Origin: a virus
DNA: 22,231 nucleotides
IMG/VR virus record: IMGVR_UViG_3300017719_000245
Span: 1 to 22,231 of that record
Direction: 5' to 3' (one strand)
The notes under the pieces are model-generated. The model made no database searches, had not been told where the DNA came from, and was given only the letters and a program-made list of their open reading frames with translations. Below are positions 1 through 3,370 of the stretch, in pieces (position 1 is the first letter of the stretch; each line of letters begins with the position of its first letter). The translations under genes were made by a program, and so were the position numbers.

Positions 1-668
1 CCAACAGTTTGACCTATACCAAATGCGGCAAGTGCAACACCCATAGACGTTAGAGTTGCAGTAAATGCTACTACGTTAGCCCCATCTGCACCAGGTAAGT
101 CAGGAATAGATAGAAGTGTTTCTACTTCATCTTTTATATTTTGTGTCCAGTCTTTTCCTTGTGTAGCCCAACCTGCGAGTGCGGTTGCTCCTTGACCGAC
201 AGCAAATATTGTTAGTCCTGCGCCTATGCCTGCGAGTGCTAACCCTAAAGATCCACCTTCTTTGAGAAATTCAACGTTGCTTTCATAGCCTTCGCCAATA
301 GATAATAGAGTTTCAACGCCTTCTTTGATTCCATCTGGATCGAATTGATCCATTATTGTGCTGAATCCTAATAGGGCAGCACCGATGCCCATTCCGGCAA
401 AACCTATACCTTTACCAACTCCACCGATAAGACCGCCAATACCGCCTAACACATCACCTGTGCCAGACATTATACCACCGCCAGTTTTACTGCCAGATCC
501 TCTAGCACTGCTACTAGACGCAGACCCTTTGGCTAACCTTGCAGCCCTCTGTGCGTCTTTTGCTGATTCTTCCTGCGCCGAAACGAATCCTGTCAAAGCC
601 TCTGTTTGCTTTTTCAGTTCTAATTCGATGCTCTGAAAGATTGGCATCATATCTGCGGTTGTGGCCAT
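1..668 (-). CDS. Tape-measure-like repeat protein, N-terminal part (runs off left edge)
   Basis: This open frame is absent from simple ATG-to-stop lists because it has no stop inside the window. It begins at ATG 668-666 (MATTADMMPIF...) and stays open for 222 codons to the left edge. Residues 10-45 are a charged helix with coiled-coil character, 46-65 are Ser/Gly-rich, and 66-105 are a Gly-rich hydrophobic stretch able to cross or associate with a membrane. Two copies of a unit then start at VETLLSI (residues 118 and 182), each followed by a hydrophobic Ala/Gly segment ending in FxxGQ (155-159 and 216-220). AAAAGG lies 7 nt upstream of the start, inside the preceding gene. Its place directly after gp26 and the gp51-like gene, and its Ala/Gly-rich helical repeats, fit a tape-measure protein (role of T4 gp29: sets tail length, fills the tube). 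Function is inferred from position and composition; another virion protein with membrane-active repeats is possible. Confidence 0.6.
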   Translation of the reverse strand, partial: MATTADMMPIFQSIELELKKQTEALTGFVSAQEESAKDAQRAARLAKGSASSSSARGSGSKTGGGIMSGTGDVLGGIGGLIGGVGKGIGFAGMGIGAALLGFSTIMDQFDPDGIKEGVETLLSIGEGYESNVEFLKEGGSLGLALAGIGAGLTIFAVGQGATALAGWATQGKDWTQNIKDEVETLLSIPDLPGADGANVVAFTATLTSMGVALAAFGIGQTV

Positions 669-672
669 TTAC

Positions 673-849
673 TTACCTTTTGCTTCTCGATTTCTCTTTT
701 ACGTCTTCGAGATGATCTATTAGCATCTCCATGTATATGTCTCGCTCATATGGTAAAAGCTCTTCTAATTCTGTTAGGCTATAATTGTGGTGTTGCGCCA
801 TAGCGAAAATACTTTGGTAATAATTTACCAGTGTATTATGACTCAACAT
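673..849 (-). CDS. Small gp51-like baseplate hub assembly protein (58 aa)
   Basis: A 58-aa frame too short for the usual cutoffs. It starts at ATG 849-847, which shares one base with the TGA of gp26 (TGATG), and stops with TAA 675-673, four bases before the tape-measure-like start. It is rich in charged and aromatic residues with a core of YSLTELEELLPYERDIYMEML (residues 23-42) and a basic tail (KEKSRSKR). That core resembles the short proteins called gp51, 'baseplate hub assembly catalyst', in marine T4-like phages, though T4 gp51 itself is much longer. No good ribosome binding site precedes its ATG, so it probably depends on coupling to gp26 or on a -1 frameshift from gp26 (see 855-861), which enters this exact frame. 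An internal ATG at residue 17 is an alternative start. The coding call is firm; the gp51 label is moderate. Confidence 0.72.
   Translation of the reverse strand: MLSHNTLVNYYQSIFAMAQHHNYSLTELEELLPYERDIYMEMLIDHLEDVKEKSRSKR
815..830 (-). other. Small inverted repeat inside the gp51-like gene
   Basis: Minus strand TGGTAA-ATTA-TTACCA forms a perfect 6-bp stem with a 4-nt loop. Allowing a 2-nt bulge, the stem can also be extended by ACT/AGT. There is no following U-tract, so it is not a terminator. It lies 24 nt past the slippery heptamer, too far for a classical frameshift-stimulating stem, so its role is uncertain. Confidence 0.3.
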
Positions 850-1556
850 CACATGAAAAAACTTTCTATACCCTCAATAACAAACTTCTTATCTTCGCCA
901 GTTGGTGTCTGATATGGACACTCAATTCTCATTGCTGGCATACTAGTGAAGAATGTTTGAATCTTCTCTAAAGCACTACCAGATAAATCATCAATAAAGC
1001 TATCGACTTCTTCTTTGCTGAAATCTTTCATACGAAAAATTTGCTCACCATCAGATGACATGACTTCGTTGATACAACTGATCATGACGTTGAAACTACC
1101 TTCACCCTCTTTAGAGTCAACCATAGTATGTAACTCTTTCAGTGTAGGATATCTCATCGTAATAGTCCAATCGTCACTGACAGCAATCTTAGGATCAAAA
1201 TCTCCTAGTCTTGCTATCTCTACTTTGTTCACATCAAATGAAAGAGAAATCTTACGACCCTCAATCTCTGGATCATTCACTTCGAATTCCACAGTATCAT
1301 TTACTGCTTTTCCTCGAATGTGCATTAGAATGTACTCGAGGTCAAATGTTGCTAATTCACTTACGTCAATATCGTCCTGAATACAGTTCGTAATGACTTG
1401 CTCAATAGATAAAAAGATTTGACTTACATCACCGCTTTCACGGCCAATCAAAAGAATCTTTTCTTCTTTGACTGTAAATGGTCTAATCTTTATCTTCTTT
1501 TTTGTTGATGGGATCGTAATCTCAAACAACGGTTGTTGTATTTTTGGTAATGGCAT
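849..1556 (-). CDS. 26: Baseplate hub subunit gp26-like (T4_baseplate family)
   Basis: A 235-aa protein, close to T4 gp26 (about 208 aa). The N-terminus (MPLPKIQQPLFEITIPSTKK, then a basic stretch IKIRPFTVKEEKILL) and an acidic, helical middle match the gp26 family of T4-like baseplate hub proteins. In T4, gp26 takes part in hub assembly together with gp51. The start at ATG 1556 is supported by AGGAG 7 nt upstream in a 20-nt gap after the tube-protein gene. The last codons read AGT TTT TTC ATG TGA, and the TGA overlaps the ATG of the 58-aa gene by one base. The T-run forms a canonical slippery heptamer, so the gene probably makes both the 235-aa protein and a 294-aa fusion with the gp51-like frame. 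That would make it behave like the 'G' part of a G/GT tail-assembly chaperone. Family assignment is good; the chaperone role is inference. Confidence 0.8.
   Translation of the reverse strand: MPLPKIQQPLFEITIPSTKKKIKIRPFTVKEEKILLIGRESGDVSQIFLSIEQVITNCIQDDIDVSELATFDLEYILMHIRGKAVNDTVEFEVNDPEIEGRKISLSFDVNKVEIARLGDFDPKIAVSDDWTITMRYPTLKELHTMVDSKEGEGSFNVMISCINEVMSSDGEQIFRMKDFSKEEVDSFIDDLSGSALEKIQTFFTSMPAMRIECPYQTPTGEDKKFVIEGIESFFM
855..861 (-). other. Candidate -1 programmed frameshift site (T TTT TTC) at the gp26/gp51 junction
   Basis: Read on the minus strand in the gp26 frame, codons TTT (860-858) and TTC (857-855) are preceded by T861, giving the X XXY YYZ heptamer T TTT TTC two codons before the gp26 stop (851-849). 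A one-base backward slip continues as CAT GTG ATG TTG AGT, the reading frame of the 58-aa protein, giving a fusion of 234 + 2 + 58 = 294 residues. A Shine-Dalgarno-like GAGGG (875-871) ends 9 nt upstream, near the spacing known to stimulate -1 shifting in E. coli dnaX. A 6-bp hairpin follows (830-815), but 24 nt downstream, farther than usual stimulators. Seen directly: the heptamer, frames and GAGGG. Inferred: that slippage occurs. Confidence 0.6.
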
Positions 1557-1576
1557 AGTATACTCCTATAATATAA

Positions 1577-2332
1577 TTATCGTAAAGATCCAAGAATTGT
1601 ATTCACATCTGTTACAGTGTTTACGAGGTCTTGGATATTTCTCGGTCTGTTCAAGTTATTTAGTGCTTGTCCAAATGTATTTAGTGAAGACAGTAGTCCC
1701 AATATGCCATTAGCACTATTAGTATCACCTGTTAGTTCACCAGTTGTAGTCGCTTCAACTTTCATACCGTCAAATGCAAACTGCACCGGTAAAGTCATTA
1801 CTTCACCAGCATTCTCCCAAGCGACTTGCTGAGAGCCTACGTTCACGGGATATGCATTGTAGAACTTGTATGAATATGTTTTATCTGTTTGGTTCTGAGA
1901 GAATACAGTGACTTCAATAGTACACGCATAGTCATCTCTATAACCAAACTCGTATGGTCGTTGACCACCATTGATCTCAGATAGGTATCCAGCGTCAATA
2001 TCGTAGTTTACGATATCTTGCATCCATCTGTGAAAGAACCTCATCACAGCAAAATTACTGTCTACCATAAACACAGTAGGCAATAACGGCAATTCAAAAG
2101 CGTTTGGTCGCTTCTCAGATGGACCATAGCCACGAGGCTTGAAGTCTACAGTCTGTACTGCGACTTCTGGTACTTCTGCGCTACGACACAAGAACGTCAT
2201 GTCTTGCGTAGGTATGTTCTCTTCTAAAAACGTCAAGTTTTCGTTGAGCGTAATCTTTAGAATGAACAGGTTACTCTTAGCTAGACCATGCTTATTCAGT
2301 TGTGCATTGAAATCTTTTATGCTGAATGCCAT
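1577..2332 (-). CDS. gp19/gp54-type tail tube protein, probably the baseplate tail tube initiator
   Basis: A 251-aa protein with the layout of the T4 tail-tube fold (Phage_T4_gp19 family). It has an N-terminal IKDFNAQL...LAKSNLFILKI, a loop with VDFKPRGYGPSEKRP, a PLLPTVFMVDSNFAVMRFF segment, and a C-terminal half with YSYKFYNAYPVNVGSQQVAWEN followed by LPVQFAFDGMKVE. T4 carries this fold in gp19 (tube), gp54 (tube initiator) and gp48 (tube cap). This copy lies beside gp26 and away from any sheath or portal gene, which favours gp54; a gp19 tube subunit cannot be ruled out from sequence alone. The C-terminal 50 residues (LLSSLNTFGQALNNLNRP...) look helical and flexible. ATG 2332 has AGGA 8 nt upstream and follows the 196-aa gene by 4 nt. 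Confidence 0.7.
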   Translation of the reverse strand: MAFSIKDFNAQLNKHGLAKSNLFILKITLNENLTFLEENIPTQDMTFLCRSAEVPEVAVQTVDFKPRGYGPSEKRPNAFELPLLPTVFMVDSNFAVMRFFHRWMQDIVNYDIDAGYLSEINGGQRPYEFGYRDDYACTIEVTVFSQNQTDKTYSYKFYNAYPVNVGSQQVAWENAGEVMTLPVQFAFDGMKVEATTTGELTGDTNSANGILGLLSSLNTFGQALNNLNRPRNIQDLVNTVTDVNTILGSLR

Positions 2333-2336
2333 ATCT

Positions 2337-2927
2337 TTATCCTATCATGCGTCTTGAATCTTTGAAGACGGTTGCTTTGCTTGCGCCTTGGAATCTTTCT
2401 AGCGGCATAAATAGCGCCATGTCCCATTCTGATGGGTAGATGTAGAGAAATTTACTTCTCAACTGGCTAGTAAGATAGTGCTTTATACAAGGCTTGAAGT
2501 AACTGAATTTCGATGAGGAGTTCAGTAACTTGTATGAGAGATTGAGTTTAGTTGTTTCATCATATCGTGAATTAGATGCTACATCATACAGAGCATCCAT
2601 AAGCTTTGCTCTATACTGTAATGGCAAGTAGTGTAGGTTCAATCCCATAAACCCACCCTTGACTTTCTTATACGGAAATACCAGAGGAAATCTATCAAAG
2701 TATGGAAGCGTCTCTTTATGCTTTGCATCGTAATAGTACATATACATTTGACCAACTAGAGGTCTAGCAGTGAGACGATCTTTATCACCTCTCATTAGCT
2801 TACCTTCGTTGACACGCTTGTACGTACCAGCGGCATCTCTGTACCAATTACGAGCCTTCTGCTCACGTGCTGGAATCTGACCTGCACGTACACCCTTAGT
2901 TAGAATTTCATCAAATACTATTGCCAT
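2337..2927 (-). CDS. Conserved T4-like phage protein of unknown function (196 aa)
   Basis: I do not recognise a function. The protein starts MAIVFDEILTKGVRAGQIPA, followed by a short amphipathic segment (REQKARNWYRDAAG). The middle is aromatic-rich (MYMYYYDAKH at 61-70, LPYFDRFPLVFPY at 74-86, GGFMGLNLHYLP at 91-102). The end is dense in conserved-looking blocks (FKPCIKHYL 144-152, PSEWDMALFMPLERF 165-179, DSRRMI 190-195). The density of W/Y/F/G/P positions suggests a compact globular protein under strong constraint, probably virion-associated or an assembly factor given its neighbours. No transmembrane segment or signal peptide is seen. Its ATG shares one base with the TAA of the nuclease gene (TAATG), so the two are likely translationally coupled, with a weak GGA 8 nt upstream. 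The similar layout I recall in other marine T4-like phages is from memory, not a search. Confidence 0.85.
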   Translation of the reverse strand: MAIVFDEILTKGVRAGQIPAREQKARNWYRDAAGTYKRVNEGKLMRGDKDRLTARPLVGQMYMYYYDAKHKETLPYFDRFPLVFPYKKVKGGFMGLNLHYLPLQYRAKLMDALYDVASNSRYDETTKLNLSYKLLNSSSKFSYFKPCIKHYLTSQLRSKFLYIYPSEWDMALFMPLERFQGASKATVFKDSRRMIG

Positions 2928-3370
2928 TAGATTTCCACTACGCCTTCTTCTATAAGTCGTTCACGATTTTTCATGTGTGCTTCGTGGACATCATCTTTAG
3001 ATTGCCCGTGATAAGCAACAGCATGTCCATCTTCAATCATAATCTCAGTAAGTCTTTTCACCGTATCGCCTTCTTCAATCAAGAAGTCGCCTAGAATACG
3101 ACCAAACTTACCTTTCTTATCTTCGCCACTCTTATCTACTTCGGTCTTCAATATCTGAGTAGAGCCAAGAGGTAGCATATCTTTGACGTGAGACTTAGCG
3201 GCAAGACCAAACTTCTTCTCTACCTTATCTCTCGTTCTGGATTCTGGAGTATCGATACCCATGACACGTACTCGCTCACGGTGAAGCCAGATACCAAAAC
3301 CTAGATCAATATCTACGTCTACTGTGTCGCCATCGACTACTCTTAGAATTTTACATTTATATTCGTACAT
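2927..3370 (-). CDS. Staphylococcal nuclease-like (SNase family) endonuclease
   Basis: A 147-aa single-domain thermonuclease homologue, predicted to be a Ca2+-dependent phosphodiesterase acting on DNA or RNA. All active-site positions are visible. D13-G-D15-T matches the DGDT calcium site, R35 lies in VRVMG, D40-T-P-E43 is the DTPE motif with the metal and general-base residues, and R91 in KFGRILGDF matches Arg87 of the staphylococcal enzyme. No signal peptide is present, so the protein stays in the cytoplasm or virion, unlike secreted relatives. The start has GGAG upstream within the end of the 89-aa gene; that stop (TAG) abuts this ATG. It sits two genes below gp4, itself a PD-(D/E)XK nuclease, so its substrate may be packaged phage DNA ends or host DNA; this is inference. 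Fold and catalysis are secure. Confidence 0.92.
   Translation of the reverse strand: MYEYKCKILRVVDGDTVDVDIDLGFGIWLHRERVRVMGIDTPESRTRDKVEKKFGLAAKSHVKDMLPLGSTQILKTEVDKSGEDKKGKFGRILGDFLIEEGDTVKRLTEIMIEDGHAVAYHGQSKDDVHEAHMKNRERLIEEGVVEI

Follow-up and report, generated by a model that had tools for sequence, protein, structure and literature searches.

The gp26 gene and the -1 frame that follows it appear, from sequence, to constitute one gene that encodes two tail assembly chaperones through a -1 frameshift, a reading to which we assign a probability of about 0.9. The gene lies in the window, i.e., the whole stretch of 22,231 nucleotides of viral DNA analysed here (IMG/VR record IMGVR_UViG_3300017719_000245); all window features given with coordinates below are on the minus strand. 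Five lines of evidence support this frameshift reading: a slip site shared by relatives, -1 frames that in part lack a usual start codon, constraint on synonymous positions, stimulators flanking the site, and the predicted protein fold. Comparison with relatives shows a conserved slip site followed by the -1 frame, together with the stimulators and, for a structure model, a chaperone-like N-terminal fold; of the 104 gp26 genes compared, 100 bear signs of frameshifting, although T4, the model phage, manages without it. An earlier reading made from the window's letters alone (the sequence-only reading) had proposed a -1 programmed frameshift that yields a short and a long chaperone form, and the gene counts, the constraint, the stimulators, and the fold all agree with it.

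In the course of events that we infer (including the slip and its rate, the action of the stimulators, and binding to the tape measure and the tube), most ribosomes would terminate at the TGA at 851-849 and release a short form of 235 aa (TAC-N). Some ribosomes, a minority, would pause at T TTT TTC, held there by pairing of GAGGG with 16S rRNA and by the downstream stem-loop; both Phe tRNAs would then re-pair one base back, and translation would continue to the end of the -1 frame, yielding a long form of 294 aa (TAC-NC). If lambda G/GT is a guide, the product of the next gene, the presumed tape measure protein, may be coated by the short form, and tail tube subunits may be recruited through the additional C-terminal domain of the long one.

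Organization of the locus in the window

The gp26 gene (849..1556) encodes the putative short form of 235 aa, which matches PF12322 (T4_baseplate; E 2e-50; 171.9 bits, above the curated cut-off of 24.5) and phrog_150 (E 3.5e-57), and which gave a structure model with a pLDDT of 87.9. Upstream of gp26 lies the tail tube protein gene (1577..2332), which matches phrog_45 (tail tube) with E 4.3e-35. The gp26 gene closes with GAG GGT ATA GAA AGT TTT TTC ATG TGA, a stretch that includes a Shine-Dalgarno (SD)-like GAGGG (871..875), which ends 9 nt before the slippery heptamer T TTT TTC (855..861; zero-frame codons TTT TTC). The -1 frame for the C-terminal domain (TAC-C; 673..852, with its stop codon at 675-673) matches phrog_634 (E 5.3e-23), a family labelled baseplate hub assembly catalyst, and is homologous to the C-terminus of T4 gp51; it also matches weakly (E 0.053) the C-terminal part of phrog_150, to which gp26 belongs. 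This frame is listed among the open reading frames with 59 aa from GTG 852, equivalent to 58 aa from ATG 849, and a -1 slip would fuse 234 + 60 residues into a product of 294 aa. The gp26 coordinates, the heptamer at 861-855 and its phase, GAGGG, the -1 frame, and the 4-nt gap to the next gene, all given by the sequence-only reading, were re-derived from the sequence and agree.

That next gene begins at an ATG at 668, 4 nt from the stop of the -1 frame, and is cut by the end of the window (1..668). Its position, length, and internal repeats, the corresponding ORF in the near-identical locus L003 having 745 aa with repeats, suggest that it encodes the tape measure, as the sequence-only reading had proposed, while comparison of this candidate with family models gave no match. 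The gp26 gene thus lies 3' of the tube gene and 5' of an ORF assigned as tape measure by position, length, and repeats; in HTVC008M, phiM12, and Cr30, a tape-measure annotation or note is found nearby, after one small ORF.

The heptamer at the end of gp26 represents more than chance. A scan of 19 main genes, which did not extend to the truncated tape-measure ORF, found 11 in-phase X XXY YYZ heptamers; none of the other ten falls within the last 60 bases of its gene, and TTTTTT[TC] has a single further occurrence in the window, antisense to a gene. Near its start (1497-1503), gp26 contains another in-phase slippery heptamer, A AAA AAG; it was rejected as a conserved site, with A AAA AA[AG] present in the first 40 codons of only 3 of 100 genes. 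An Rfam scan of window positions 1-3000 gave a single, sub-threshold match (SNORD29 at 2509-2568; 24.5 bits against a gathering threshold of 48), which is probably due to chance.

Conservation of the slip site and nucleotide-level selection

The relatives fetched initially were the best 80 of 566, of which one (L004), lacking a complete 3' end, was left out of all counts. Further loci came from four more scans and from 20 named phages that were the author's choice from match lists; the phiM9 seed provided 60 loci (most at 23-29% identity), the KVP40 seed two, and the T4 seed six, while no relatives were obtained when the protein of Vibrio phage D533 served as seed. The 164 complete genes were reduced to 104 non-redundant ones, each with under half of its 12-mers in common with any kept gene; these 104 are a sample set by the search seeds, not a census. 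Loci L155, L165, L169, and L171, which are partial matches, were left out of the junction comparison, and four added phages (AG-345-F15, S-RIM44, K475, and K448) stand outside the 104. Adjacent C-terminal frames were identified with a TAC-C profile built from 33 of the searched sequences.

All 79 relatives with the gp26 stop codon on the contig carry the heptamer, which begins 10 nt before the stop; in these 79 loci the -1 frame crosses the heptamer into a conserved domain of 53-61 residues, with the contig end cutting two. By profile search, 100 of the 104 non-redundant genes are followed by an adjacent TAC-C that lies in the -1 frame, and all 100 carry T TTT TTN (TTTTTTT in 78, TTTTTTC in 17, including the window, and TTTTTTG in 5). 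Both the heptamer and a significant adjacent TAC-C are missing from the remaining four, i.e., FBB1 (L096), L166, and L170, which are of the T4 kind, and Vibrio phage D533 (L098). Among +1 stretches of 60 nt or more, the best match to TAC-C had an E value of 0.44. The heptamer was present in 18 of the 20 chosen named phages, among them S-PM2 (TTTTTTC), a cultured relative that infects Synechococcus; of the four added phages, AG-345-F15 and S-RIM44 have TTTTTTC, and K475 and K448 have no heptamer. Conservation of the heptamer across relatives, which the sequence-only reading had made a test of its proposal, holds for all 100 non-redundant genes with a significant adjacent TAC-C.

Selection at this site acts on the nucleotides. 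The codon before TTT encodes Asp (37), Thr (29), Ser (32), or Asn (2) in the 100 genes, with T as its third base in every case; at other positions of these genes the T-ending fraction for the same amino acids is 0.67, 0.37, 0.42, and 0.59, respectively. In five of the 100 genes the second heptamer codon is TTG (Leu), so that the residue is changed and T TTT TTN is kept. When synonymous constraint was scored in a codon alignment of 48 non-redundant genes of the window's lineage, the two Phe codons ranked 1 and 2 of 200 scored columns, and the codons flanking them ranked third and fourth. The constraint at the junction that the sequence-only reading had predicted is hence present, with the heptamer codons the most constrained of gp26. 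PMC4066793 includes U_UUU_UUC in its list of heptamers whose shifting in E. coli, with no stimulators, exceeds 0.10%. In three loci (L150, L151, and L153) the zero frame continues for 8 codons beyond the heptamer, which would give a short form with an extra tail; the -1 entry is unchanged.

Flanking signals and alternative explanations

The RNA signals expected to favour the slip are exceptionally distinct in this phage. Motifs upstream of the heptamer were scored with the letters of the SD consensus. A 4-nt SD match beginning 11-18 nt before the heptamer was found in 95 of the 100 genes, compared to a mean of 15.1 and a maximum of 38 when the same interval was moved upstream by 190 steps; conservation of an SD-like element at this place, which the sequence-only reading had expected of GAGGG, is thereby borne out. 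The commonest form is GGAGGG (37 of 100), and Glu at this element is encoded by GAG in 57 of 72 cases, against 617 of 2084 elsewhere.

Downstream of the heptamer, the 66 nt fold more stably than synonymous recodings of the same stretch in the window's lineage (48 genes; mean z -3.89, 96% below -1.645; -2.94 for the window itself), as compared to a mean z of -0.43, with 14% below -1.645, for an upstream control. (Separate earlier shuffles were mononucleotide.) The signal is not general, with a mean z of -1.77 in 18 isolates (half below -1.645) and of -0.69 across the other set, which comprises 34 genes (18% below -1.645). In the window's lineage, it corresponds to an 11-pair stem (columns 13-23 with 62-72) that starts 5 nt after the heptamer, which places a stem-loop within the 5-8 nt downstream typical of dnaX-type signals. 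The window's own arms are at 839..849 (5') and 790..800 (3'), where 9 of the 11 pairs form and one of the two mismatches is the outermost pair; a nested hairpin within the loop (809..836) comes from the minimum-free-energy fold of the window sequence only.

Evidence for this stem comes from pairing and covariation over the 48 sequences. Pairing was observed in 87.9% of stem cells, versus 22.5-41.9% when the arms were slid by 1-3 columns, and there were 22 double-change cells versus 9.5 after shuffling (0 of 500 shuffles as high), a comparison that ignores relatedness. The number of pairs changed on both sides was unexceptional (4 versus 2.8; 60 of 500 shuffles as high). Pair 16/69 (15/68 in an alternative numbering) changed from T-A to C-G at synonymous positions, the first base of a Leu codon and the third of a Gln codon, in most sequences; on a tree, it showed 4 same-branch double changes versus about 1 expected, and three other pairs showed 3, 1, and 1 versus 0.5, 0.8, and 0.04, the change at one of these three being to a non-pair. 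RNAalifold alone recovered only the inner 5 of the 11 pairs. Single-sequence folds of S-PM2, P-SSM2, and Cr30 contain different strong hairpins near the heptamer.

The presence of the fold follows the spacing between heptamer and stop. With one codon in between, the fold was found in 47 of 48 genes of the window's lineage, in 6 of 14 isolates, and in 3 of 6 genes of the phiM9/KVP40-seed set; with the stop directly after the heptamer, the signal is nearly absent in the phiM9/KVP40-seed set (mean z -0.34, 3 of 27; L108-L164 of the phiM9 set) and present in 2 of 3 isolates. The SD-like element accompanies both arrangements (65 of 68 and 28 of 30, respectively). The stem-type and stop-abutting groups also differ in ancestry, so that lineage and design are confounded; we infer that the stop codon stands in for the stem as the pausing element. 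The stem versus stop-abutting split offers a natural experiment on how phages tune a fixed two-protein ratio.

These signals bear on three other explanations of the junction. It is improbable that translation of TAC-C begins independently at GTG 852 or ATG 849, coupled to the overlapping stop, so as to give a small protein of its own, with the heptamer incidental. In the window, ATGTGATG does overlap the stop and a start; a usual start codon lies near the -1 entry in 75 of the 100 genes, window included (ATG in 57, GTG in 4, and TTG in 14), which makes coupled re-initiation a possible reading of this virus taken by itself; and TAC-C is frequently annotated as a separate gene in databases (e.g., in S-PM2, P-SSM2, and KVP40). 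However, the other 25 genes have no nearby ATG, GTG, or TTG (CTG- and ATA-type starts aside), as had 20 of 68 in an earlier, smaller count over a slightly different interval, so that an independent start at a usual codon is not general. A separate start also does not account for a heptamer that is found in 100 of 100 genes and is absent from the four without a significant adjacent TAC-C, or for T4 gp51, which carries both domains in one protein.

The T run itself might be read differently. RNA polymerase slippage, by which some mRNAs would gain a frame-joining insertion or deletion, fits the seven consecutive T in 78 of the 100 genes and has been offered as a possible reason for the rarity of UUUUUUU in E. 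coli genes (PMC4066793); by contrast, the window and 16 other genes (TTTTTTC) and another five (TTTTTTG) have only six T, and the conserved SD-like element and covarying stem fit a signal read by ribosomes, which makes this explanation very unlikely. The heptamer could also reflect nothing but protein constraint on a terminal Phe-Phe combined with T-rich codon usage: in two protein alignments Phe 233 never varies and Phe 234 varies hardly or not at all, and TTT is the commoner Phe codon elsewhere (386 to 182). This account, to which we give almost no weight, is already contradicted at the sequence level, as the T4-type genes examined keep Phe-Phe without a heptamer, the Leu codon replaces the second Phe with the T run kept, and the constraint on the heptamer codons exceeds what each gene's own codon usage predicts.

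Protein fold, T4-type exceptions, and related systems

A structure comparison with G-type chaperones, suggested along with the frameshift proposal, supports a chaperone-like fold for the N-terminal domain of the gp26 model. The best VIA-align row, at Z 7.9, was 2ob9, a tail assembly chaperone of HK97 (model residues 1-85, 84 of 107 residues), followed by 3fgx (Z 7.6) and 3klu (Z 6.7), with Z values under 8 also possible for a common arrangement; the best row taken as unrelated had a Z of 4.6. We take 3fgx and 3klu to be chaperones as well. Foldseek alone was not significant, with nothing at E 0.001 against the PDB and 2ob9 at rank 50 (E 2.7), and a viral structure library returned gp26-type hub proteins (best E 1.8e-17), which restates the family. 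The gp26 alignment gave a best E of 0.048 against sequences of solved structures, taken as chance, and hhalign detected no similarity between gp26 and lambda G (probability 0.2%); known tail assembly chaperones are very diverse, so this dissimilarity says little. The TAC-C model consists of three helices (pLDDT 76.7).

T4 appears to hold the same two domains in another arrangement. T4 gp26 aligns with the TAC-N profile (hhalign E 2.2e-18), as does T4 gp51 (E 2.5e-6; residues 3-248 of 249 match phrog_150), and the TAC-C alignment matches gp51 residues 211-242 (hhalign E 2.6e-4, probability 42%), so that gp51 looks, from these alignments, like TAC-N plus TAC-C in one protein. Unlike in the window, T4 gp26 and gp51 are two separate, divergently transcribed genes, and none of the T4-type loci examined has a heptamer at the end of gp26; these genes keep Phe-Phe (mostly as TTC TTT, in L170 as TTT TTT), and the preceding codon ends in G or A, which precludes a heptamer. 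In Vibrio phages D533 (L098, 2839-3760), K475 (L172, 2252-3255), and K448 (L173, 2339-3260), gp26 is followed by a TAC-C-like -1 frame with TAATG at the junction and no heptamer; D533 gp26 belongs to PF12322, and its -1 frame is below significance against the TAC-C profile (E 1.6). This Vibrio lineage has possibly turned to a separate start, a third way to make the C-terminal domain. The sequence-only reading had named, among others, two kinds of observation as evidence against itself, a heptamer not conserved in relatives that keep the frame, and genes set apart or in another relative frame. The former, its main one, did not tell against it, while the two genes do lie apart in T4-type phages and the three Vibrio phages have the -1 frame without the heptamer; these exceptions leave the window's lineage untouched.

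Taken over all T4-like phages, we give an even chance to a scheme in which two interchangeable designs are built on a shared T TTT TTN and SD-like element, one with a stem and one sense codon before the stop and the other with an abutting stop and no stem, and in which the system was then dismantled at least twice, in the T4 group by means of a fused gene 51 that stands apart, and in the Vibrio lineage through loss of the heptamer with a stop-overlapping ATG.

In its abstract, the 2022 paper by Vladimirov, Gautam and Davidson reportedly describes frameshifting as retained in several groups of T4-like phages, with genes 26 and 51 serving in T4. The heptamer of dnaX is A-rich. Bacterial dnaX-type signals resemble the gp26 junction in their SD-like element, heptamer, and downstream stem-loop, as described in PMC5600365, PMC7282821, and PMC4066793, and differ from it in that gp26 has T TTT TTN and a lineage-specific stem. 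Lambda G/GT consists of a short and a -1 frameshifted long chaperone encoded between the tube gene and the tape measure (PMC5009743), an arrangement that the window, with its tape-measure candidate, probably shares; gp26 has no detectable sequence similarity to lambda G. The Vandenendeviridae chaperone of phage Adele has a conserved GTTTTT motif at the end of TAC-N and a -1 frame open in 56 unique alleles; it belongs to another family and has another motif, and the account in PMC12846349, as far as consulted, describes neither stem nor SD element.

Frameshifting in T4-like phages had been reported before. A 2016 review describes chaperone frameshifting of the lambda kind as conserved in other long-tailed phages except T4 (PMC5009743), and the sequence-only reading knew of no description for T4-type phages; Vladimirov et al. 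2022 (PMID 34826709) did report it. PRFect (PMC10885494) cites that paper for T4-like phages in which a short gene is accompanied by a longer, fused one, and the Adele paper (PMC12846349) cites it for T4-like TAC-N genes with poly-T slip sites. Judged by these citing papers, their chaperones are the same system as the window's; the frameshift idea for T4-like phages is not new, and the window phage is very likely a further case. What is new here are the flanking RNA signals and the two designs, subject to Vladimirov et al. 2022, which might describe them; the titles and opening abstract lines searched mention no SD-like element or stem at these sites.

For genome annotation, these results mean that the records of cyanophages and pelagiphages can contain wrong annotations for gp26 and gp51. 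In the public records of S-SSM4 and ACG-2014e the C-terminal frame is omitted, and in those of HTVC008M and Melnitz it is annotated from an internal start (loci L085, L091, L092, and L101), as expected for a frame without its own start.
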